A DNA stretch of 64,000 nt from Planctomycetota bacterium (GTDB lineage Bacteria; Planctomycetota; Phycisphaerae; UBA1845; UTPLA1). Every line of letters starts with the position of its first letter. Within the stretch, counting starts at the first letter, position 1. The translations under genes were made by a program, and so were the position numbers. Where the stretch lies: assembly GCA_003576905.1 (NCBI GenBank), contig QEVG01000017.1:1-64000 (forward strand). The letters are read 5' to 3'. A model generated the notes under the pieces. That model was not told the DNA's origin and ran no database searches. It worked only from the letters and a program-made list of their open reading frames with translations. Of this stretch, positions 4,699 through 15,456 are shown in pieces.

Positions 4699-6078
4699 AT
4701 GGACCTCTTTTCCGCCAAGCGCCAGGCGGCGCTAAACCGCGTGCAGCCGCTGGCGGTGCGCATGCGCCCGCGGAGCCTCGACGAGTTCGCCGGACAGCGA
4801 CACTTCCTCGGTCCGGGCAAGCTGCTTCGCAGGCTTCTGGACGCAGACCGGTTGTCGAGCGCGATTTTCTACGGTCCGCCGGGCACGGGGAAAACGACGC
4901 TTGCGCAAATCATCGCGAACCATACCCGGGCGGCTTTCGAGGCGGTGAACGCGGCGGGGGTCGGCGTGAAAGAGGTGCGGGAGATCCTCCAGCGGGCGCG
5001 CGACCGGCTGGAGGAGGACGGGCGGCGCACGGTGCTCTTTCTCGATGAGATTCATCGGTTCAACCGCGCCCAGCAGGATGTGCTCCTGGGGGACGTCGAA
5101 AACGGAATTGTCATTCTGATCGGGGCGACGACGGAAAACCCCTTCTTCAGTGTAAACTCGCCGCTGGTCTCGCGAAGCCAGATCTTCCAGTTCGAGCCCC
5201 TTTCGGAAGAGGACATTGCGGAGCTTATGCGCCGGGCGCTAGCGGACACGGAGCGCGGGCTGGGTCGGTTTCATGCCACAATCGCCGAAGACGCGCTTTC
5301 CTTTCTGGCAACGACCAGCGACGGCGATGCTCGAAGGGCGCTGACCGCGCTGGAGGTCGCGGTGCTTTCACAGCTGGATTGCACCGAGCAGGTGGGGAAC
5401 ACAGGGTCGGCGGCCAAGGCCCCGATACAAATCACGCTCGAAGTGGCCCAGGATTCGATCCAGCGCAAGGCGATCGTCTACGACGGCTCGGGCGACGAGC
5501 ATTACGACGCGGCCAGCGCGCTGATAAAGTCCATGCGCGGTAGCGACCCGGACGCGGTCGTTTACTGGCTGGCACGCATGCTGGAGGCCGGCGAGGACCC
5601 GCGTTTCCTGGCGCGGCGGATCGCGATCTGCGCCGCGGAGGACGTGGGCAATGCCGATCCCATGGCTCTCGTCCTGGCCAATGCCGCGGCGCAGGTGACG
5701 ATGCTCGTCGGCCTGCCCGAGTGCCAGCTTCCGCTTGCCCAGGCGGCGATCTACATCGCCTGCGCGCCAAAGAGCAACGCAAGCGCGATGGCGATCTGGA
5801 CGGCGGGCAGCGACGTGAAGAACGGCCGCACGCTGCCCGTCCCGAGGCATCTTCGGGACACGCACTACCGGCAGGCCGGCCGCCTGGGCCACGGCGAGGG
5901 ATATCAATACGCCCATGACGCCCCGGACGGCATCGTCGCCCTGGACTATCTCGGCGTGGAGAAGACTTACTACGTCCCTACCGACCGAGGCCATGAGCGC
6001 GTCATGGCCGAGCACCTGGAGCGATTCAAGAAGCTGCGGGCGGGGGCGGGCGGCACCGCGAGCGACGCCACGCCTTGA
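4699..6078 (+). CDS. rarA: Replication-associated recombination protein A (RarA/MgsA)
   Basis: AAA+ ATPase related to the clamp-loader family that acts at stalled replication forks. The 459-residue product is typical in length. Walker A GPPGTGKTT is at residues 59-67, Walker B LFLDEIHRF near 113-121, sensor 1 GATTEN near 139, and the C-terminal tetramerisation domain carries the family pattern SALIKSMRGSDPDA and EDVGNADP. The start ATG at 4699 is preceded by a modest CAGGGT. Its stop codon lies inside the -35 element of the next promoter. Confidence 0.96.
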   Translation: MDLFSAKRQAALNRVQPLAVRMRPRSLDEFAGQRHFLGPGKLLRRLLDADRLSSAIFYGPPGTGKTTLAQIIANHTRAAFEAVNAAGVGVKEVREILQRARDRLEEDGRRTVLFLDEIHRFNRAQQDVLLGDVENGIVILIGATTENPFFSVNSPLVSRSQIFQFEPLSEEDIAELMRRALADTERGLGRFHATIAEDALSFLATTSDGDARRALTALEVAVLSQLDCTEQVGNTGSAAKAPIQITLEVAQDSIQRKAIVYDGSGDEHYDAASALIKSMRGSDPDAVVYWLARMLEAGEDPRFLARRIAICAAEDVGNADPMALVLANAAAQVTMLVGLPECQLPLAQAAIYIACAPKSNASAMAIWTAGSDVKNGRTLPVPRHLRDTHYRQAGRLGHGEGYQYAHDAPDGIVALDYLGVEKTYYVPTDRGHERVMAEHLERFKKLRAGAGGTASDATP

Positions 6079-6103
6079 CCCGCCCGGCACGCTCAGCTAT
6101 CAT
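6075..6103 (+). promoter_or_regulatory. Sigma70-type promoter for the cys/siroheme operon
   Basis: TTGACC (6075-6080) and TATCAT (6098-6103) each match the sigma70 hexamers at five of six positions and are separated by exactly 17 bases. The -35 overlaps the rarA stop codon. The predicted start is at 6110-6111, which is the first base of the ATG of the leader ORF. Confidence 0.75.
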
Positions 6104-6110
6104 GTTTTCC

Positions 6111-6236
6111 ATGAACGGCGGTACTTCGTTCCCAGGATCGTACATCACCGCGCGGCAATCCGCCGTGTTCGCGGAAATCTTTTGCTGCGCTTGTTGTCGC
6201 TGTTGTTGTCGAACCGGCCAAGGGGGAGCCACCTGA
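6111..6236 (+). CDS. Cysteine-rich leader peptide (41 residues), attenuator uORF
   Basis: ATG at 6111, TGA at 6234-6236. Cysteines fall at residues 25, 26, 28, 29, 31, 32 and 33, giving CCACCRCCC encoded at 6183-6209. Five of the seven are TGT, the codon usually disfavoured in GC-rich genomes. No Shine-Dalgarno sequence precedes it, but the promoter places transcription start at or next to the ATG, so translation is probably leaderless. An in-frame ATG at 6102 lies within the -10 element and is unlikely to be transcribed. The ORF sits directly ahead of cysH and a terminator hairpin. By analogy with trp/his leaders and the polycysteine uORFs of mycobacteria, the inferred job is to sense Cys-tRNA through ribosome stalling rather than to make a functional protein. 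Confidence 0.85.
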   Translation: MNGGTSFPGSYITARQSAVFAEIFCCACCRCCCRTGQGGAT

Positions 6237-6321
6237 CGGCAGCCGCGCAGCATGAATCCCGCAATGGCGGGATTTGAGATTGCATGAACGGCCCTCAGGT
6301 TGGTTCCTGAGGGCCTTTTTT
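6183..6321 (+). promoter_or_regulatory. Cysteine-responsive transcription attenuator (alternative RNA hairpins)
   Basis: Four pairing segments are visible. Segment 1 (TGCTGCGC, 6183-6190, in the Cys codons) is a perfect complement of GCGCAGCA at 6245-6252. Segment 2 (6231-6240, overlapping the leader stop codon) pairs with 6291-6300 in nine of ten positions and would form an antiterminator. Segment 3 (6290-6299) pairs perfectly with segment 4 (6306-6315) to form the terminator. A nested hairpin, AATCCCGC with GCGGGATT (6255-6274), lies between segments 2 and 3 and would bring them together. Inferred logic: a ribosome stalled on Cys codons frees segment 2 and allows read-through; a ribosome reaching the stop codon covers segment 2 and termination follows; with no translation, 1:2 pairing also favours termination. 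Confidence 0.8.
6290..6321 (+). terminator. Intrinsic terminator of the cys leader
   Basis: Ten-base perfect stem GGCCCTCAGG (6290-6299) and CCTGAGGGCC (6306-6315), six-base loop TTGGTT, then T6 (6316-6321) and ATT. It lies 22 bases ahead of the cysH start codon and is therefore a regulated terminator rather than the end of rarA alone. Confidence 0.92.
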
Positions 6322-6343
6322 ATTGGCGTGAAGGGGTCGTACC

Positions 6344-7057
6344 GTGGGACTGCCCGTGATTCAGGAAGCGCGGCCGCCGCGCATCGGCGAGGCCAGCCCG
6401 CCGCACGAGTTGATCGAGTGGAGTCTGCGCCATTTCGCGGGCCGGCGCTTGGAGATGAGCACTTCGTTCGGCATGGAAGGCTGCGCCCTGATCGATATGT
6501 ACGCGCGGCACGGCGTGCCGCTGACGGTGTTCTACCTCGATACGATGTTCTTCTTTCCCGAGACCCACCGGCTGCGCGAGCGCATGATTGAAAAATACCC
6601 CCACCTGACATTTGTCAATCGCGGGACCACCCTGACGCCGGAAGAGCAGGCCAGGCTGCACGGGCCCGAGCTCTGGAAGACGAACCCCGACCTGTGCTGC
6701 CGCATTCGCAAGGTGGACCCCATGAAAGACGCACTGGCCGGCGTGGACGTGTGGATCACGGCGCTGCGACGCAGCCAGTCGGAGACGCGGGCGAATATCC
6801 GCGTGCTCGAATGGGACTGGAAGTACCATGTACTCAAGTTCAGCCCGATCGCGGCATGGAGTCGCCGCGACGTGTGGAGCTACATTCAGGAGCGCGGCGT
6901 GCCGTACAACGAACTTCATGAAAAGGGCTATCCCACGGTCGGCTGCACACATTGTACGATCCCGGTGGAAAGCGTCGTGCTCGGTGACTATTCGCGCGAC
7001 GGGCGATGGGCGGGCAAGGGCAAGACGGAATGCGGACTGCACGGCGAAGGGATTTGA
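6344..7057 (+). CDS. cysH: Phosphoadenylyl-/adenylyl-sulfate reductase (iron-sulfur type)
   Basis: Reduces activated sulfate (APS or PAPS) to sulfite in assimilatory sulfate reduction. The 237-residue product carries the family signatures: TSFGMEG near 40-46, the paired cysteines CC at 118-119 and CxxC at 201/204 that ligate a [4Fe-4S] cluster, and the catalytic Cys230 in ECGLH near the C-terminus. The CC...CxxC set indicates the APS-preferring, cluster-containing branch. The GTG start at 6344 has AAGGGG seven bases upstream. It is the first structural gene after the attenuator. The sulfate-activating enzymes are not in the window. Confidence 0.95.
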   Translation: MGLPVIQEARPPRIGEASPPHELIEWSLRHFAGRRLEMSTSFGMEGCALIDMYARHGVPLTVFYLDTMFFFPETHRLRERMIEKYPHLTFVNRGTTLTPEEQARLHGPELWKTNPDLCCRIRKVDPMKDALAGVDVWITALRRSQSETRANIRVLEWDWKYHVLKFSPIAAWSRRDVWSYIQERGVPYNELHEKGYPTVGCTHCTIPVESVVLGDYSRDGRWAGKGKTECGLHGEGI

Positions 7058-7082: not shown

Positions 7083-8816
7083 ATGTCTGACGAAGCGTCG
7101 AAGAAAGAATCCAAGGTCGAGGCCCAGAAGCGCGGCAGCCGTCATTTGCGCGGGACAATAAAGGAAGTCCTGGCCGGCCCGGCGACGCACTTCGATGACT
7201 CCGACGCGAACATTCTCAAGTTTCACGGTTCGTATCAGCAGGACGACCGCGACGAACGGCGCAGCCTTCGCGACACGGGAATGGAAAAGGCCTACCAGTT
7301 CATGGTGCGCGTGGCGATCCCCGGCGGGTCGATCACGGCGGATCAGTATCTCGCGCTGGACCGGCTGGCGGACTCGCACGGCAACGGCACGCTGAGGGTC
7401 ACGACGCGGCAGGGTTTCCAGTTTCACGGCGTTCTCAAGGGCGCACTCAAAGAGACCATCGCGTCCATTAATCATGCCCTTCTCACGACGATCTCGGCGT
7501 GCGGCGACGTTGAGCGCAACGTCATGGCTTGCCCGGCCCCGCTCGGTGACGAAGCTCACCGGGTACTTCAGGAGACGGCGCGCGAGATCGCGATCCAGCT
7601 TCGCCCCGCGAGCCGTGCATATTATGAAATCTGGCTGGACGAGGAGGAACTGGTCCACACGCAGGAGACCGAGCCTTTCTACGGCGAAACGTATCTGCCG
7701 CGGAAATTCAAGACCGGCATCGCGCTGGACACCGACAACTGCGTGGACATTTACTCGTACGATTGCGGGCTGATTGCGATCGTCGAAGGCGGGCGCGTCG
7801 CGGGCTTCAATGTCGTGGTCGGCGGGGGCATGGGCATGACGCACGGCAAGGCGGACACGATCGCGCGGCTGGCGTCGCCGCTGGGCTTCATCGAGCCGGG
7901 TCATGCCGTGGAGGCGGTGAAGGCGGTCGCGGCGATCTTTCGCGATCACGGCAACCGCGCCGACAGGCGGCACGCGCGGATCAAGTACCTGATCCATGAG
8001 TGGGGCATGGATCGGTTCACCGAGGAGTTTCAGCGCCGCGTGACTTTTCGGCTTTCACCGTGGCGGCCGTTGCCGCCGGCCGCGTATCACGATCATCTCG
8101 GCCGCCATGCGCAGGGAGACGGCAGATGGTTCTACGGCGTCTTTATCGAGAACGGGCGCATTGCCGACCGCGACGGCGCCCGAACCAAGGCCGCGCTGAA
8201 GGAAATCATCGAGACACATCGGCCGCGTGTGCGCCTGACACCAAGCCAGAACATCCTTCTCGCCGACCTGACCGAGCCGCAGATTGAGGCGGTCGTCGAG
8301 ACCCTGGGCCGTTACGGCGTGAAGCGCGTCGAGGAGCTCTCTGCCGCGCGGCGCTACGCGATGGCATGTCCGGCTCTGCCCACCTGCGGGCTGGCCATGT
8401 CCGAGAGCGAGCGACTCATGCCGAGCGTCGTGGATGCCTTCGAAGCAGAGCTGGCCGCGCTGGGCATGCGCGACGTGCCGCTGACCCTGCGGATGACCGG
8501 CTGCCCCAACGGATGTGCCCGGCCTTACACGGCGGATATCTCATTCGTCGGCCGTCGGCCGGACGTGTATCACGTCTTTGTCGGCGGGGGGCTCGGCGGC
8601 GACCGCGTGGCGGATCTGTTCGCGGAGGACATCGCGACCGATCAACTCGTGCCGACGCTGCGGCCGCTGCTGACGAAATGGGCGCGCGAGCGCCGCGGAG
8701 ATGAGAGCCTGAGCGACTATTACCAGCGTCTGATCGGGCATCCCCAGCGCCGGCAGTATGTCACCGGAAGCGAAACCGCGACGGCGCGCACGCTGTCGCT
8801 AACGGTGCTGCCATGA
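7083..8816 (+). CDS. cysI: Sulfite reductase hemoprotein (siroheme and [4Fe-4S])
   Basis: Six-electron reduction of sulfite to sulfide for cysteine synthesis. From the ATG at 7083 the product has 577 residues, the usual length for CysI/ferredoxin-sulfite reductase. The siroheme/[4Fe-4S] ligand motif is complete: Cys429 and Cys435 (Cx5C in CPALPTC) and Cys474 and Cys478 (Cx3C in CPNGC). A longer in-frame extension overlapping cysH is rejected because GGGAGTG precedes this ATG. The flavoprotein partner CysJ is not in the window, so the electron donor may be ferredoxin or a CysJ encoded elsewhere. Its need for siroheme explains the porphyrin genes that follow. Confidence 0.95.
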   Translation: MSDEASKKESKVEAQKRGSRHLRGTIKEVLAGPATHFDDSDANILKFHGSYQQDDRDERRSLRDTGMEKAYQFMVRVAIPGGSITADQYLALDRLADSHGNGTLRVTTRQGFQFHGVLKGALKETIASINHALLTTISACGDVERNVMACPAPLGDEAHRVLQETAREIAIQLRPASRAYYEIWLDEEELVHTQETEPFYGETYLPRKFKTGIALDTDNCVDIYSYDCGLIAIVEGGRVAGFNVVVGGGMGMTHGKADTIARLASPLGFIEPGHAVEAVKAVAAIFRDHGNRADRRHARIKYLIHEWGMDRFTEEFQRRVTFRLSPWRPLPPAAYHDHLGRHAQGDGRWFYGVFIENGRIADRDGARTKAALKEIIETHRPRVRLTPSQNILLADLTEPQIEAVVETLGRYGVKRVEELSAARRYAMACPALPTCGLAMSESERLMPSVVDAFEAELAALGMRDVPLTLRMTGCPNGCARPYTADISFVGRRPDVYHVFVGGGLGGDRVADLFAEDIATDQLVPTLRPLLTKWARERRGDESLSDYYQRLIGHPQRRQYVTGSETATARTLSLTVLP

Positions 8817-9931
8817 TCGACCGGCTGCATTACTTCGGCGCGACGCACCGCACGGCGGCCATTGCCGTGCGCGAGAAGCTCGCCCGCGGCCCGGAACGGC
8901 TGCCCCGGATCCTTGCGGCGCTGCGCGGAGCGGCCGGCGAAGCTCTGGTCCTGAATACGTGCGGGCGCTTCGAGGTTTACCTGGCAGCGCCCGATGCGGC
9001 GCTCGTCAACAATCCGGCCGCGCGGGCGGCGATTCTGAATCTGCCGGAGGCAACCGCGCGGCTGCACCTGCAAACCCTGAGCGGACGCGAGGCGGTGCGG
9101 CATGCCCTTCGCGTGGCAGCAGGACTGGATTCGCGCCTTCTCGGAGAAGATCAGATCCTGGCGCAGGTGCGGTCGGCGTTTTCGCTCGCCCGGCGCGAGA
9201 AGGCCTGCGGCCCCCTGCTGTCGGCGCTTTTTCAGGCGGCGATACACACGGGGCGGCGGGTGCGGTCCGAAACGCGCCTCGGACACTACAGCAGATCGTA
9301 CGCAGCGCTCGCGGCCGTCGCGGCCGTGGATCGACTCGAACGCCTGGATGGGAGCAGCGCCTTTCCGGACGTAATTGTCCTCGGCACCGGCATCCTGGCC
9401 CGAGACGTGTCCGAGGAAATTCGCCGGAGGTCGAACGCCGGACTGCTTGTCGTCGGCCGACACATGGACCGCGTGCGGGCCCTGGCGGCGTCATTTCGAG
9501 GCGAGCCGCACAGACTGAATGAGTTGCCGGCGCTTCTGCGGCGCGCGGGCGTGCTTGTCGCCTGTGCGACGACGGAGGCGCCTCTTGTCACGCGAAACAT
9601 GATTCCGACATCAGGGGGTCGGTTGCTCATCGATCTGGGCATGCCGCGAAACATCGAGCAGGCGGCGGGTGAACTGCCCGGCGTGACACTCATCCATCTG
9701 GACATGCTGCGGGACGGATCGGCCGTCGAGCGAGAGGCGATCGAGGAGGCAGAGCAGCTGGTCGCCGAGGAACTCACCCGTTATCAGCGCTGGCTGGCGG
9801 GCCGGGCACTTGCGCCGCGGATTGTTCACATTCTGGACCACGCCGAAACCGCGCCGGGAGGCGCTTCGCCGGAGCTCCGCCGCGCCCTGCACAATCGGAT
9901 CATGCGTCTGAAGGAGGAGGCCGCGGCGTGA
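8813..9931 (+). CDS. hemA: Glutamyl-tRNA reductase
   Basis: First committed enzyme of the C5 pathway to 5-aminolevulinate; it reduces glutamyl-tRNA(Glu) to glutamate-1-semialdehyde with NADPH. The 372-residue product is somewhat shorter than the common 410-450. The catalytic Cys50 lies in LNTCGRFE; the substrate-domain pattern GREAVRHALRVAAGLDSRLLGEDQI and the Rossmann domain (about 170-290) follow. The start overlaps the cysI stop in an ATGA junction, so the two are translationally coupled. Confidence 0.95.
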   Translation: MIDRLHYFGATHRTAAIAVREKLARGPERLPRILAALRGAAGEALVLNTCGRFEVYLAAPDAALVNNPAARAAILNLPEATARLHLQTLSGREAVRHALRVAAGLDSRLLGEDQILAQVRSAFSLARREKACGPLLSALFQAAIHTGRRVRSETRLGHYSRSYAALAAVAAVDRLERLDGSSAFPDVIVLGTGILARDVSEEIRRRSNAGLLVVGRHMDRVRALAASFRGEPHRLNELPALLRRAGVLVACATTEAPLVTRNMIPTSGGRLLIDLGMPRNIEQAAGELPGVTLIHLDMLRDGSAVEREAIEEAEQLVAEELTRYQRWLAGRALAPRIVHILDHAETAPGGASPELRRALHNRIMRLKEEAAA

Positions 9932-11637
9932 GTCGAGCGGCGCTCATCCTCGCCGCGCACGGAAGCCGCCACGAGCCCGCGGCGAATGAGCTGCTCCGCG
10001 CGTGGGCGGCGACGCTGGCCGCGCGGGGCGGATTCGATGACGTGTGGGCGGCGTTTCATCAGGGCGAGCCGACCTTCGCCGAAGCGCTGGATCAGACCGA
10101 CGCCGTTGACATCGTGGTCGTGCCCGTGATGACGAGCGAGGGGTATTACTGCGACGAGTACCTTCCGGCAGAACTGGCGAAGAACCGGCGGTACGGATCG
10201 GTGCGCGTGCGCGTGACGCCGCCCGTAGGCGTCCATGCGAAGGTGCCGGAGCTGGTGGAGACGCGCGGGCTGGAGCTTGCGGCGCGGTTCGAGCTGGACC
10301 CAGGAGTCTGCGGCGTGGCACTCATCGGACATGGAACGCGGCGCAGCGCCGGCAGCCGCGTGGCGACGGCCCGGCTGGCGGAGGCCCTCCGAAAGCGAGG
10401 TCGATTTGCCGAAGTCGCCGCGTTCTATCTCGATGAGCCGCCGACCGTTGAGGAAGTACCGATTCACCTGACACGGGCGAACATTCTGGTGCTGCCGTTT
10501 CTCATCAGCGGCGGACCGCACGCGGTGCGGGATGTTCCCTCGCGCCTGGGGCTCGCCACGCCCGTGACAGGCGCTCTTCCCCTCGACGGGAAGGCGCACG
10601 GCTGCCGCATGATCTGTGACGCGCCGTTTGGCACGGACCCCCGCGTGCTGGAAATCATCGCGGACCTCGCGAAGACCGCCCGATCCGATACCGCGTCGCC
10701 GCAGTCGAACGGATCAACCCGATTTCGGCCCGGTCCCGCGGCGCCGCTGAGGCTGCGGCTCGGCACGCGCGGCAGCCGGCTGGCGCGGTGGCAGGCGGAT
10801 CACGTCGCCGCGCGGTTGCGCGCGCTCGGAGTCCGCCTGGAGATCGTTGAGATTTCCACCGCGGGAGACCGGCTTGGCGATGTTGCGATCGCCGATCTGC
10901 CGGGCGACGCCCCCTTCACGGATGACATCGATGCGGCACTCGCGCGCGGAGAAATCGATCTCGCCGTTCACAGCCTGAAGGACTTACCGGTGCGGGCGGC
11001 GCTTGCGGTTGCGGCCGTCCTGAAGCGCGGCGAGGTGAGCGAGTCGCTCGTGGCGCGCGCCGACCTGCGCCTTGCTGAGCTTCCGCCCGGCGCGACCGTG
11101 GGCACGAGCAGCCCGCGGCGCGTGGCGCAACTGCTCGCGCTTCGACCGGACCTTGTGCCCGTGACGATCCGCGGAGCGGTGGATGACCGGGTGCGCCAGG
11201 TTCGCGCGGAGCGATTTGACGCGGCGATCCTGGCGACGGCCGGCTTGTCGCGCCTGGGGCTCCTCTGCGAGGCCGGCGAGCAAATGCCGCTGGATCTGTT
11301 CCTGCCCGCGCCGGGGCAAGGGGCGATGGCTGTACAGTGCCGCTCGGATGACGCCGCGACCTTGGAAATGTGTCGATCGCTTGAGGACGCGGAGTCGCGG
11401 CGGGCGGTCACGGCTGAACTCGAGTTCCTGCGGCCGTTCGAGTTTGACAGGACCTACGTCGCCGCCGCATACGCCATAGCGAGCGCATTGGACGCGTCGC
11501 CATCGAGCGTTCTGCTTCGGGCCCGGCTGCTTTCGCTCGATGGGCAGCAGGTTTGCGACGTATCGGTGTCGGGAAACGATCCGACGGCCGTGGCGCGGCG
11601 GGCCATTGACGAGGCGACTGCCCGGCTAGGCCTGTAG
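9928..11637 (+). CDS. Fused sirohydrochlorin chelatase (CbiX/SirB-like) and hydroxymethylbilane synthase (HemC)
   Basis: A 569-residue two-domain protein. Residues 1 to about 255 form a CbiX-type chelatase with an internal duplication: the metal-binding His motif appears as AAHGSR near residue 11 and again as GHGTRR near 134. From about 272 onward it is porphobilinogen deaminase, with LGTRGSRLA, VHSLKDLP (catalytic Asp352), GTSSPRR and PAPGQGAMAVQ all present. The loop that normally carries the dipyrromethane-binding Cys (LEGGC) instead reads LRPFEFDRTY, with Arg508 in the place of Cys. The fusion suits a siroheme pathway, since the two domains act early and last. It overlaps hemA by four bases. 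Confidence 0.92.
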   Translation: MSRAALILAAHGSRHEPAANELLRAWAATLAARGGFDDVWAAFHQGEPTFAEALDQTDAVDIVVVPVMTSEGYYCDEYLPAELAKNRRYGSVRVRVTPPVGVHAKVPELVETRGLELAARFELDPGVCGVALIGHGTRRSAGSRVATARLAEALRKRGRFAEVAAFYLDEPPTVEEVPIHLTRANILVLPFLISGGPHAVRDVPSRLGLATPVTGALPLDGKAHGCRMICDAPFGTDPRVLEIIADLAKTARSDTASPQSNGSTRFRPGPAAPLRLRLGTRGSRLARWQADHVAARLRALGVRLEIVEISTAGDRLGDVAIADLPGDAPFTDDIDAALARGEIDLAVHSLKDLPVRAALAVAAVLKRGEVSESLVARADLRLAELPPGATVGTSSPRRVAQLLALRPDLVPVTIRGAVDDRVRQVRAERFDAAILATAGLSRLGLLCEAGEQMPLDLFLPAPGQGAMAVQCRSDDAATLEMCRSLEDAESRRAVTAELEFLRPFEFDRTYVAAAYAIASALDASPSSVLLRARLLSLDGQQVCDVSVSGNDPTAVARRAIDEATARLGL

Positions 11638-11648
11638 GAAACGGTGCG

Positions 11649-13193
11649 GTGATGAACACAACAGGCGGCAGAGTGTATCTTGTCGGCGCGGGACCGGGGG
11701 ATCCGGGACTGGTTACCGTACGCGCGCTTGAGCTTCTGCGCGCGGCCGACGTGGTGATTCACGATCGGCTGATTCCGCATGAACTGCTGGACGAAGTGCG
11801 CGCCGAGGCGATCGTGATCGACGCGGGCAAGGCGCCGGGCATGCACATGCGGACACAAGTCGAAATAAACGCCCTGCTCGTGGCACATGCCTCGACGGGC
11901 CGCAATGTTGTTCGCCTCAAGGGGGGCGATCCTTTCGTTTTTGGGAGGGGATACGAAGAATGGCTCGCGTGCCAGGCGGCCGGCATACATTGTGAGGTCG
12001 TGCCCGGCGTCAGCAGCGCGATTGCCGGACCGGCCGCCGCAGGCGTCCCCGTGACGCACCGCGGCGCGGCCCGGAACTTTGCCGTTGTCACGGCGCGAAC
12101 CGGCGCATCGGACGAGCCGACCGCGCTGGACTACGCGGCCTTGGCGCGGTTGGACACGCTCGTCGTGCTGATGGGCCGGGCAGCTCTGCGGGAGGTCACG
12201 ACGGAACTGATTCGCGCCGGTCGAGACGCCGGAACGCCTGCGGCATGCGTGCAGAACGCCACGACAACGGCGCAGCGCGTCGTTGCGGCGGACCTGGGCG
12301 GCATCGCCGAACGCGCGGATGCGGCGGAACTGGAAGCGCCCATGGTGCTCATTGTCGGAGAGGTGGCCGCATTCGCGACGGGGCTGCCGGACGGCGGTGA
12401 TGAGCCGGCGAACCGCTCGGCCGGGGGCCGGCGACCGCTGCACCGCCGCCGCGTCGTCGTAACGGGCTCGGCCCGTCTGAATCGCACGCTCGGGCGTCAG
12501 CTTCGCGCTGCCGGAGCGAGCGTTCTGGAGTGCGGACTGGTTTCGATTCGATATGGCGTGACGGCGGCGGATCGGGCGGTGCTTGCCCGGGAGATGGAAA
12601 GGCTTGACTGGCTGGTGATTGCATCGGCGCACGCGGTGCGTGGCTTTGGCATCGCGATGCGCAGCGCTGCCATTGACCTACGCCAGCTGGCAGGGGTGGG
12701 CATCGCCGCAGTGGGCGTTGGCACTGCGGAGGCCCTCGCGCAACTGGGACTTCGCGCGAATCTGATCCCGAACACGCAAAGCGCCGCGGGTCTGGTGGCC
12801 GAGTTGGCAAGGAGGGTAAGGGGCAGTCGCATTCTCCTGCCGTGCGGCGACCTGTCTCGACCGGAGCTGCGGGATGGACTCGCGGCCGCCGGCGCACACG
12901 TGTCACGCATCGTCGTCTATCGAAACGAGGCTGCGGCAGTGAACGACGCGGTGGCCGGGACGCTGCGCGAGGGATTTGACGCTGTCGTATTTGCAAGCCC
13001 GTCGGCCATCGCACGTTTCGGCGCGTTGGGTATTGACGTGGGCGCCGCGGTCGTGGCCTGCATCGGCCCGACGACCGCGCGGACGGCGGCCGCCTTGAGC
13101 CTTGCGGCGGACGTCACGGCGACGGAACACTCGGCCGCAGGCATCGTTCGCGCCCTGATTGAGTACTTTTCCAACATCGAGGTGCACACATGA
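11649..13193 (+). CDS. Fused uroporphyrinogen-III C-methyltransferase and uroporphyrinogen-III synthase (CobA-HemD)
   Basis: A 514-residue bifunctional enzyme. Residues 1 to about 245 are SUMT, with VYLVGAGPGDPGLVT, the GGDPFVFGRG motif and the PGVSSA loop; this domain makes precorrin-2 from uroporphyrinogen III using SAM. Residues about 260-514 are HemD, which closes and inverts ring D of hydroxymethylbilane; HemD is poorly conserved but the two alternating alpha/beta lobes and the FASPSAIARF stretch near the end are typical. The same fusion is known in other bacteria. AGGAAA precedes the GTG at 11649 by seven bases; the ATG at 11652 is an equally possible start. Confidence 0.92.
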   Translation: MMNTTGGRVYLVGAGPGDPGLVTVRALELLRAADVVIHDRLIPHELLDEVRAEAIVIDAGKAPGMHMRTQVEINALLVAHASTGRNVVRLKGGDPFVFGRGYEEWLACQAAGIHCEVVPGVSSAIAGPAAAGVPVTHRGAARNFAVVTARTGASDEPTALDYAALARLDTLVVLMGRAALREVTTELIRAGRDAGTPAACVQNATTTAQRVVAADLGGIAERADAAELEAPMVLIVGEVAAFATGLPDGGDEPANRSAGGRRPLHRRRVVVTGSARLNRTLGRQLRAAGASVLECGLVSIRYGVTAADRAVLAREMERLDWLVIASAHAVRGFGIAMRSAAIDLRQLAGVGIAAVGVGTAEALAQLGLRANLIPNTQSAAGLVAELARRVRGSRILLPCGDLSRPELRDGLAAAGAHVSRIVVYRNEAAAVNDAVAGTLREGFDAVVFASPSAIARFGALGIDVGAAVVACIGPTTARTAAALSLAADVTATEHSAAGIVRALIEYFSNIEVHT

Positions 13194-14170
13194 CACCATA
13201 CTCGTTCAAGAGATTCCGCCGGCTGCGCGGAAGGCCCGCCCTCCGGCGGATGGTTCAGGAAACGACGCTTTCGATGACCGACCTGGTGTATCCGCTGTTT
13301 GTCGCACAGGATGCCCGCGACGCCGGGCCTGTAAAATCGATGCCCGGCGTGGCGCGCCACGCGCTGGACGGGCTGGAGCGCGAAATCGAGCAGATCGCCG
13401 CGCGGCGGATACCCGCGGTCTTGCTGTTCGGGATTCCCGCCCGGAAAGACGATCAGGGCAGCGGCGCCTGGGACCCGGACGGCATCGTGCCGGCCGCGGT
13501 GCGGCGCATCAAGGCGGCGCGCCCGGACATGGCGGTGATCGCCGACGTTTGTCTGTGTGAATACACGGCGCATGGGCACTGCGGCATCATCCGCGACGAC
13601 CGCGTGGACAACGACGCGACGCTGCCGCTTCTGGCGAGGGCGGCCGTCGCTTATGCAAGGGCAGGCGCCGACGTCGTCGCACCCAGCTCGATGATGGACG
13701 GACAAGTTGCCACTCTCCGCGCTGCACTGGACGACGCCGGGCACTACGACACGGCGATACTCGCATATGCGGTCAAGTATGCGTCGGCCCTGTATGGTCC
13801 GTTTCGCGATGCGGCGGCCTGCGCGCCGAAGTTCGGAGACCGGCGAAGCCACCAGATGGACCCTGCAAACATTCGCGAGGCGCTGGCCGAGGCGGCGGCG
13901 GACGCGGCCGAAGGCGCAGACATGCTCATGGTCAAGCCGGCGGGGGCCTATCTGGATGTGATCGCCCGGGTCCGGGAGCATGTGCCGCAGGCGCCGCTCG
14001 TGGCCTACCAGGTAAGCGGAGAATACAGCATGATCAAGGCCGCAGCAGCGAACGGATGGATCGACGAGCGCCGCGTCGTGCTGGAGACCCTTACGGCGAT
14101 ACGCCGCGCCGGCGCGGACGTCGTCATCAGCTATTTCGCGAAGGATGTCGCCGACTACCTGGTTGAGTGA
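13190..14170 (+). CDS. hemB: Delta-aminolevulinic acid dehydratase (porphobilinogen synthase)
   Basis: Condenses two 5-aminolevulinate molecules to porphobilinogen. The 326-residue product contains both active-site lysines, Lys196 (AVKYAS) and Lys249 (MVKPAGAYLD), and the zinc-type cysteine triad Cys121, Cys123 and Cys131 in CLCEYTAHGHC, so it belongs to the zinc-dependent class. The start overlaps the previous stop in an ATGA junction. Confidence 0.97.
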   Translation: MTPYSFKRFRRLRGRPALRRMVQETTLSMTDLVYPLFVAQDARDAGPVKSMPGVARHALDGLEREIEQIAARRIPAVLLFGIPARKDDQGSGAWDPDGIVPAAVRRIKAARPDMAVIADVCLCEYTAHGHCGIIRDDRVDNDATLPLLARAAVAYARAGADVVAPSSMMDGQVATLRAALDDAGHYDTAILAYAVKYASALYGPFRDAAACAPKFGDRRSHQMDPANIREALAEAAADAAEGADMLMVKPAGAYLDVIARVREHVPQAPLVAYQVSGEYSMIKAAAANGWIDERRVVLETLTAIRRAGADVVISYFAKDVADYLVE

Positions 14171-14181
14171 AACGAGGAATC

Positions 14182-15456
14182 ATGACCCGCGGCGACGAAT
14201 TGTTTCACCGGGCACTCCGGCTCTTTCCCGGCGGCGTCAATTCGCCCGTGCGGGCCTTCAAGAGCGTCGGCGGCACCCCGCGAATCATCGATCGAGCGCG
14301 GGGCTGCCGGCTTACCGACGTCGATGGGCGCAACTATATCGACTACATCGGCTCCTGGGGACCGATGATCGCGGGGCATGCCCATCCTGACGTGATCCGT
14401 GCGATACTCAGATGCGTGCAGCACGGCACGAGTTTCGGCACGCCTTCACCGCCGGAGATTGAGCTGGCGGAGGAGATCATCGCCCGGATGCCCGGCATTG
14501 AGAAAATCCGCTTCGTCAACTCCGGGACCGAAGCGGTGATGAGCGCGATCCGCCTTGCACGGGCGGCGACGGGGCGGACGCATGTCGTCAAGTTTGAGGG
14601 CTGTTACCACGGCCATGCCGATTTGATGCTGGTGAAGGCGGGATCAGGTGTGGCCACGCTGGCTCTACCCGATTCTCCGGGGGTCACGCGCGGCAGTGCC
14701 CAGACAACCCTGGTCGCGCCGTACAACGACCTCGCCGCGGTCGAGCGACTGTTTGAGAGGCATGGCAGTGAAATCGCCGCGGTCATCATTGAACCGATCG
14801 CAGGCAACATGGGTGTTGTCCCCGCGGACGAGGATTTCCTTCACGCGCTCCGCTCGCTCACTGCCGAGCGCGGGGCACTCCTTATCTTTGACGAAGTCAT
14901 GACCGGTTTTCGGGTTACGCCGGGCGGGGCGCAGGCGTTCTACGGAGTCTCGCCGGATCTGACCACGCTTGGGAAAATCATCGGCGGCGGGATGCCGGTG
15001 GGAGCGTACGGCGGGCGGACGGATCTCATGGACCTGGTTGCTCCCGCGGGAAGCGTCTATCAGGCCGGAACGCTTTCGGGAAACCCGCTGGCCATGAGCG
15101 CGGGACTGGCGACGCTTCGCCTTCTCGACGACGCCGCGTACGTGGGGTTGAAGATGGGATCGGCGAGGCTGCAACACGGGCTTGAAACGCTGCTGAAACG
15201 CAAGGGCGGGCCGGGCGTGGTCCAGCGGGCCGGCTCCATGCTCTCCCTCTTTTTCATTGACCGGCCGGTTCGAAACTTCACCGATGCCCGGGCGGCGGAT
15301 CATGCGAAATTCGCGGCGTTCTTTCACGGCATGCTGGAGCGGGGTGTGCACCTGCCGCCCAGCGGGTACGAAGCATGGTTCGTCAGCATGGCACACGACG
15401 ATGCGGCAATTGACGAAACGCTCGACGCGGCGGCTGATGCCCTTGCACGCCTGTAG
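14182..15456 (+). CDS. hemL: Glutamate-1-semialdehyde 2,1-aminomutase
   Basis: PLP enzyme that makes 5-aminolevulinate from the HemA product. Taking the ATG at 14182 (GAGGA just upstream) the product has 424 residues and begins like other family members, with LFPGGVNSPVRAF at about 14-26; a GTG at 14167 overlapping the hemB stop is the alternative. The PLP lysine is Lys265 in LGKIIGGG, its canonical position. It closes the set of genes from cysH. No clear terminator follows. Confidence 0.95.
   Translation: MTRGDELFHRALRLFPGGVNSPVRAFKSVGGTPRIIDRARGCRLTDVDGRNYIDYIGSWGPMIAGHAHPDVIRAILRCVQHGTSFGTPSPPEIELAEEIIARMPGIEKIRFVNSGTEAVMSAIRLARAATGRTHVVKFEGCYHGHADLMLVKAGSGVATLALPDSPGVTRGSAQTTLVAPYNDLAAVERLFERHGSEIAAVIIEPIAGNMGVVPADEDFLHALRSLTAERGALLIFDEVMTGFRVTPGGAQAFYGVSPDLTTLGKIIGGGMPVGAYGGRTDLMDLVAPAGSVYQAGTLSGNPLAMSAGLATLRLLDDAAYVGLKMGSARLQHGLETLLKRKGGPGVVQRAGSMLSLFFIDRPVRNFTDARAADHAKFAAFFHGMLERGVHLPPSGYEAWFVSMAHDDAAIDETLDAAADALARL

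Follow-up and report, generated by a model that had tools for sequence, protein, structure and literature searches.

How might a planctomycete tie the expression of its sulfate-assimilation genes to the supply of cysteine, the amino acid that they serve to make? To our knowledge, little work has addressed how sulfate assimilation is regulated in Planctomycetota, Gemmatimonadota and Acidobacteriota. The question is raised by a stretch of 64,000 nucleotides (nt) from a Planctomycetota bacterium of the lineage Phycisphaerae, UBA1845, UTPLA1 (contig QEVG01000017.1, positions 1 to 64,000; hereafter the window), in which rarA ends at 6078, cysH starts at 6344, and the gap between them holds a promoter, a short leader open reading frame (ORF) rich in Cys codons and an intrinsic terminator. 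The original prediction, made from this DNA without database searches, had taken the leader for a cysteine-sensing attenuator placed before a sulfate-assimilation and siroheme operon. Our analysis backs that proposal by four lines of evidence, namely conservation, covariation of antiterminator and terminator, spacing between the Cys codons and the antiterminator arm, and placement of the start codon. We thus read the element as a ribosome-mediated transcription attenuator that would sense charged Cys-tRNA before the cysH operon, and give this reading a probability of about 0.88.

All the parts of such a device are present in the window. The 41-residue leader ORF with seven Cys in nine codons was confirmed between ATG 6111 and TGA 6236, as were its neighbors, rarA upstream (Pfam MgsA_C and AAA_assoc_2 matches) and cysH downstream (Pfam and NCBIfam). 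This density of Cys is exceptional, since elsewhere in the window (outside 6100-6240) nine codons contain at most four on either strand. The leader RNA is also unusually stable, with a folding z score of -3.09 and none of 200 shuffles equally stable. The three helices originally described are there, with 8/8 positions paired between the Cys codons (6183-6190) and 6245-6252, 9/10 between the stop region (6231-6240) and 6291-6300, and 10/10 in the terminator stem, which T6 follows. The antiterminator is, however, longer than was first described: seven extra pairs (6224-6230 with 6302-6308) make it a 16-bp helix, 6224-6240:6291-6308, with one bulge and one mismatch. Since the leader UGA falls within its 5' arm, a ribosome halted there would cover the arm, from which the end of the last Cys codon is 14 nt away. 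Between the leader stop and the terminator, a predicted 8-bp hairpin with a 4-nt loop (6255-6274) might pause RNA polymerase.

Conservation was assessed in 101 genomes, consisting of the bacterium's own and 100 relatives, of which 55 have a cysH match at an E value of up to 0.001. The cysH of 44 is of the window's type (56-100% identity) and that of the other 11 is distant (26-39%). As the original prediction had anticipated, the region upstream of cysH in 42 of the 44 close-type loci encodes a leader with at least four Cys in 12 codons, followed by a terminator-like hairpin 26-53 nt past the stop codon. A three-Cys version of the leader, whose tail and terminator are of the usual kind, was recognized by eye at locus L024. 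Locus L043, in genome G063, begins inside cysH because its contig ends there, and another G063 contig carries a matching leader at its end. The leader of L007 is 369 nt from cysH. Cys clusters located between -300 and -60 occur in 39 of the 42 close-type loci with enough flank, as against 1/9 distant-type loci and 72/1050 shuffled sequences. The spacing seen in the window also recurs, the last Cys codon lying 8-17 nt before the antiterminator arm in 31/42 loci; the remaining loci have an extra Cys codon downstream, or a predicted arm elsewhere. A covariance model of the leader gave 38 whole-model matches in the 101 genomes at E values of up to 1e-7, 37 of them at known cysH loci and one at the G063 contig end. 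Among 392 genomes drawn from the phylum, the model matches below 4e-8 the window's own leader alone; many weak matches cover the terminator part only, and the loci fetched with them provided no further Cys leader with a convincing terminator. The model is sequence-specific and therefore has little bearing on other operons or on remote loci.

The leader and the hairpin also change together. The duplex between the leader tail and the 5' part of the terminator has a mean energy of -23.8 kcal/mol for cognate pairs versus -19.1 kcal/mol for swapped ones (standard deviation 0.48; matched in 0/20,000 permutations; n=42), and the difference persists with one locus per genus (-23.4 versus -19.7 kcal/mol; n=28; 0/20,000). 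The same swap test revealed no cognate advantage for seven control segment pairs (Cys run with linker or terminator, tail with linker, linker with terminator, and the upstream segment with Cys run, tail or terminator). Pair counts, from an alignment of the 28 of 42 loci that align well, point the same way. In the antiterminator, 75.9% of the cells are paired, with a score of 0.271 compared with 0.065-0.120 for slid controls, and in the terminator 97.5% are paired, with a score of 0.409 compared with 0.065-0.193. For the antiterminator, none of 500 shuffles was as high in cells with two-sided changes, in cells paired or in score; the number of pairs changed on both sides, eight, is not above shuffles (223/500 as high).

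The helix formed by the Cys codons themselves behaves differently. We rejected 6183-6190:6245-6252 as a conserved element, with 41.3% of cells paired and a score of 0.050 inside the slid range of 0.024-0.100; its probability in the window's free RNA is 0.35. In the minimum free energy structure of that RNA, the Cys codons 6192-6211 pair instead with 6234-6252, an arrangement that would sequester the antiterminator arm. Comparative support across loci for a protector of this type is weak: about ten pairings were tried, and the result was 52/20,000 with one choice of segments and 2145/20,000 with another. Of the four-segment logic of trp and his attenuators invoked originally, the antiterminator and terminator consequently stand; the strictly four-segment form is weakly supported because the first helix is not conserved and any protector has weak comparative backing.

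Where translation of the leader begins can be judged from its promoter. The window promoter, at 6075-6103, would place the transcription start near 6110, at or beside ATG 6111. A promoter with at least 8/12 consensus matches was found in 39/42 loci, 34 of which have an in-frame ATG 5-12 nt past the -10 box, in a frame open to the Cys run. Of all the ATGs in this 5-12 nt interval, 38 share the frame of the Cys run and a single one falls in another frame. On this placement, the leader ORF is probably leaderless or nearly so. We also observed that the Cys codons of the 42 leaders are TGT in 181/269 cases, compared with 14/71 in ten ORFs of the window, which may reflect a choice of slow codons or a constraint on the RNA.

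Ribosome-mediated attenuation, as in trp, is classical, and the parts described above suggest how it could work here. With transcription starting at or beside ATG 6111, a ribosome would load onto the nascent RNA at its 5' end. When Cys-tRNA is scarce, it would stall within the Cys run, which ends 14 nt short of the arm, leaving 6224-6240 free to pair with 6291-6308 and keeping the terminator from folding; RNA polymerase would then continue into cysH and the sulfite reductase and siroheme genes. When Cys-tRNA is ample, the ribosome would reach the UGA and cover the arm, the terminator at 6290-6321 would form, and transcription would stop. The Cys codons of RNA that is not being translated may pair with the stop region and so favor the terminator, although the case for this is weak. 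A folding model of the window with ribosomes in these positions predicts the antiterminator at a probability of 0.94 for a ribosome in the middle of the run, and the terminator at 1.0 for a ribosome at the stop codon and 0.99 for free RNA. At equilibrium, the terminator is predicted above 0.5 in 42/42 loci with the ribosome at the stop codon, and in 36/42 for free RNA.

Similar leaders precede cysH in other groups. A wider scan covered 70 loci, mostly from Planctomycetota (many of them Phycisphaerae), and also from Pirellulaceae, Gemmatimonadales and Acidobacteria. One of its loci, L068, is labelled Alphaproteobacteria, and its CysH and leader group with Phycisphaerae rows, the assembly being probably mislabelled. 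Gemmatimonadales have a shorter leader with CCC near its end, missed at a threshold of at least four Cys in 12 codons and detected at three in eight; it is present in 7/7 loci with enough flank, five with a detected terminator, and its ATG is leaderless by placement in 8/8 loci checked. When 249 Gemmatimonadota genomes were drawn, nine had a CysH match at an E value of up to 1e-50, six of these having leader and terminator, one no flank and two no leader. The phylum to which the Acidobacteria record L093 belongs was sampled with 247 genomes, of which 25 have a CysH match (26 loci); a Cys cluster followed by a terminator was found in 10 of the 26, L203 has a Cys cluster with no detected terminator, and the rest have no such leader. 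The ATG placement is leaderless in 5/10 of these acidobacterial loci, where promoter matches are poor, and in 6/6 additional wider-scan loci, most of them from Planctomycetota. Over 24 loci of the other groups, cognate pairing is again stronger than swapped (-24.1 versus -19.5 kcal/mol; 0/20,000). Within Acidobacteriota the figure is 39/20,000 (n=9), and in Gemmatimonadota alone cognate pairs are not distinguished (4947/20,000; n=6), probably because the sequences are alike.

Five of these acidobacterial loci (L215, L217, L218, L220 and L222) form their own CysH branch. The letters of their leaders are different (terminator arm CCCACTGCC or similar), and the tail still pairs with the terminator arm; the leaders, at about -233 to -70 from cysH, have up to seven consecutive Cys. 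They are perhaps of independent origin. The Gemmatimonadota rows and the L093 group are placed among the window's CysH type in a CysH tree, and transfer of operon and leader, or mislabelling of assemblies, is therefore possible. We used only branch positions from this tree and disregarded its count of label changes, as L200 and L201, which duplicate L093 and L101, had been assigned to the wrong group. In Pirellulaceae, a small Cys cluster and a terminator occur in 6/17 loci (L106, L108, L109, L110, L122 and L123). We do not count these as attenuators, the pairing of tail and terminator being no better than swapped (4331/20,000; n=6) and the start leaderless in 0/6; such ORFs may be a degenerate or different version.

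Several results weigh against the proposed attenuator or the simplest account of it. With a ribosome stalled in mid-run, the equilibrium model predicts the antiterminator above 0.5 in just 18/42 loci and the terminator above 0.5 in 23/42, even if shuffled linkers yield an antiterminator above 0.5 in only about 1% of 840 cases. When the 3' arm of the terminator is incomplete, the antiterminator is favored in 41/42 loci with a stalled ribosome, but also in about 61% of 840 shuffles, which makes this version of the model weak evidence, and 5/42 loci still favor the antiterminator when the ribosome sits at the stop. L044 has a low-scoring, weak terminator hairpin, and L004, L041, L042 and L044 show an unusual geometry between Cys codons and arm. 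The permutation tests ignore relatedness, apart from the version with one locus per genus. Lastly, the antiterminator arm of the five acidobacterial leaders on their own branch sits 12-44 nt ahead of the stop codon's end, and its own end 12-21 nt ahead, so that a ribosome at the stop would cover it partly or not at all and the simple stop-masking picture does not fit them. In L041 (G016) and L042 (G015), the usual spacing is broken by another cluster of Cys codons at the stop or close to it (TCCCC-stop and GCCW-stop).

Four other explanations were weighed against a Cys-tRNA attenuator. In the first, the leader would control translation of cysH, as mycobacterial polycysteine upstream ORFs do, and the hairpin would be incidental. 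There is precedent, in that leaderless polycysteine upstream ORFs before cysteine genes act by translation in Mycobacterium smegmatis, as stated by PMC13236596 with reference to Canestrari 2020. We nevertheless regard this as improbable since the leaders of relatives are followed by a terminator that covaries with the leader tail, and the window fold (6111-6325), though ending short of the cysH start, contains no pairing with that start. Slightly less probable again is that the ORF encodes a functional Cys-rich peptide, binding metal or thiols or arresting the ribosome, which regulates in another way. Copper-linked Cys-rich upstream ORFs are known (PMC9426467), but here the peptides outside the Cys cluster and the number and spacing of Cys vary widely between genera, and what persists is the RNA pairing. 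In other phyla, methionine and cysteine genes are under S-boxes and T-boxes. A third view, in which the sensing falls to a T-box, a riboswitch or another known RNA element and the ORF plays no part, is very hard to sustain: S-box and T-box elements are named in PMC1262725, but no Rfam family reaches its gathering score, and the one match at E values of up to 1 in 5950-6450 is to a CRISPR-repeat model, at 17.1 bits for a cut-off of 39. Finally, the promoter lies at the end of rarA, and rarA transcripts would also meet the terminator, but the notion that it merely ends them and that the Cys run arose by chance can be set aside given the distribution of Cys clusters over close-type, distant-type and shuffled sequences and the cognate pairing.

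What would be placed under the control of this attenuator is a sulfate-assimilation and siroheme operon (Table 1), whose genes we identified by Pfam and NCBIfam in agreement with the original prediction.

Table 1. Elements of the leader region and genes of the downstream operon in the window
Feature	Position	Strand	Evidence and remarks
Sigma-70-like promoter, TTGACC-17-TATCAT	6075-6103	+	10/12 consensus matches; 1 found versus 0.1 expected in shuffles
Leader ORF, 41 aa, MNGGTSFPGSYITARQSAVFAEIFCCACCRCCCRTGQGGAT	6111-6236	+	ATG 6111, TGA 6234-6236; probably leaderless
Cys run CCACCRCCC, proposed sensing codons	6183-6209	+	Sequence; Cys cluster upstream of 42/44 close-type cysH
Possible protector in untranslated RNA	6192-6252 (6192-6211:6234-6252)	+	Predicted fold; weak comparative support
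Antiterminator 5' arm, with the leader stop codon inside	6224-6240	+	16 pairs with 6291-6308; swap test; pair counts
Antiterminator 3' arm (terminator 5' arm, loop and first part of 3' arm)	6291-6308	+	Pairing; swap test; pair counts
Intrinsic terminator	6290-6321	+	10-bp stem 6290-6299:6306-6315 (10/10 paired), T6 6316-6321
cysH, (phospho)adenylylsulfate reductase	6344-7057	+	Pfam, NCBIfam
Assimilatory sulfite reductase	7083-8816	+	Pfam, NCBIfam
hemA, glutamyl-tRNA reductase	8813-9931	+	Pfam, NCBIfam; sole copy found in genome
CbiX-HemC fusion	9928-11637	+	Pfam, NCBIfam
CobA-HemD fusion (uroporphyrinogen-III methyltransferase and synthase)	11649-13193	+	Pfam, NCBIfam
hemB, porphobilinogen synthase	13190-14170	+	Pfam, NCBIfam; sole copy found in genome
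hemL, glutamate-1-semialdehyde aminomutase	14167-15456	+	Pfam, NCBIfam

These genes supply the sulfide of cysteine and the siroheme needed for making it, and the whole operon would lie behind the attenuator provided that there is no internal promoter. The arrangement is common, at least one other operon gene following cysH in 66/70 loci of the wider scan; of the four exceptions, three have less than 200 nt of downstream sequence. No match to uroporphyrinogen decarboxylase (HemE) or ferrochelatase was found in the genome, whose assembly is 97% complete. On this basis, the operon looks like a siroheme line and may serve siroheme alone. Because hemA and hemB are single and in the operon, and HemE and ferrochelatase were not found, cysteine may set the siroheme supply.

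The element is real and widespread and its interpretation largely right, and the attenuation logic is known already. The statement that polycysteine upstream ORFs are known from mycobacteria stands; the claim of novelty attached to it needs trimming, for a Cys-codon attenuator with an intrinsic terminator has been predicted before cysS of Rhodobacterales (PMC8632094). That motif, uORFC-8-2, likewise combines conserved Cys codons in an upstream ORF, an intrinsic terminator and predicted ribosome-mediated Cys-tRNA attenuation. It differs in having two tandem Cys codons at about positions 14-15, inside the first stem, a cysS target and another bacterial class as host, whereas the leaders described here have long Cys clusters, precede the cysH operon and are probably leaderless. 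Mycobacterial polycysteine leaders resemble ours as Cys-cluster ORFs before cysteine and sulfur genes, and they too are leaderless (PMC4633059), a feature that we deduce from promoter placement (34/39 loci). In contrast to the covarying terminator and antiterminator found here, they are described as acting by translation attenuation (PMC13236596) and as having no conserved terminator hairpin (PMC1262725). Two further systems offer mechanistic parallels. In Sinorhizobium meliloti trpL (PMC7298713), the leader ORF starts at the first codon of the transcript and two exclusive structures govern transcription termination, but the codons are for Trp, the peptide has 14 aa and the pathway is another. 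Mycobacterium tuberculosis ilvB1 (PMC13236596) also has a two-structure model, in which a ribosome that has reached the stop codon hides about 26 nt and so prevents antiterminator formation; it differs by its branched-chain amino-acid codons and its pathway. The literature that we covered on leader-peptide attenuation in Planctomycetes and Acidobacteria and on siroheme leaders, which excludes most subscription papers, does not describe the element, nor does the available part of PMC2965389, on Acidobacteria, contain a Cys leader.

The cysH leader would unite two features known separately, leaderless polycysteine upstream ORFs and Cys-codon attenuators ending in an intrinsic terminator. On a broader scale, we tentatively propose, at somewhat less than even odds, that sulfate assimilation in several phyla (Planctomycetota, in Phycisphaerae; Gemmatimonadota; Acidobacteriota) has as a main regulator Cys-codon attenuators that end in intrinsic terminators and, at the loci from Planctomycetota and Gemmatimonadota, are leaderless. 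Such attenuators would have arisen at least twice, as one acidobacterial group, on a CysH branch of its own, has antiterminator and terminator letters unrelated to the rest. The same tentative proposal holds that, where hemA and hemB occur only in the operon and no heme branch is found, the tetrapyrrole supply as a whole is set by how far Cys-tRNA is charged. If the attenuator reading itself is right, the leader is an RNA-encoded cysteine sensor that can be read from sequence and has a searchable pairing rule, and an entire cofactor pathway would be gated by the charging state of a single tRNA.

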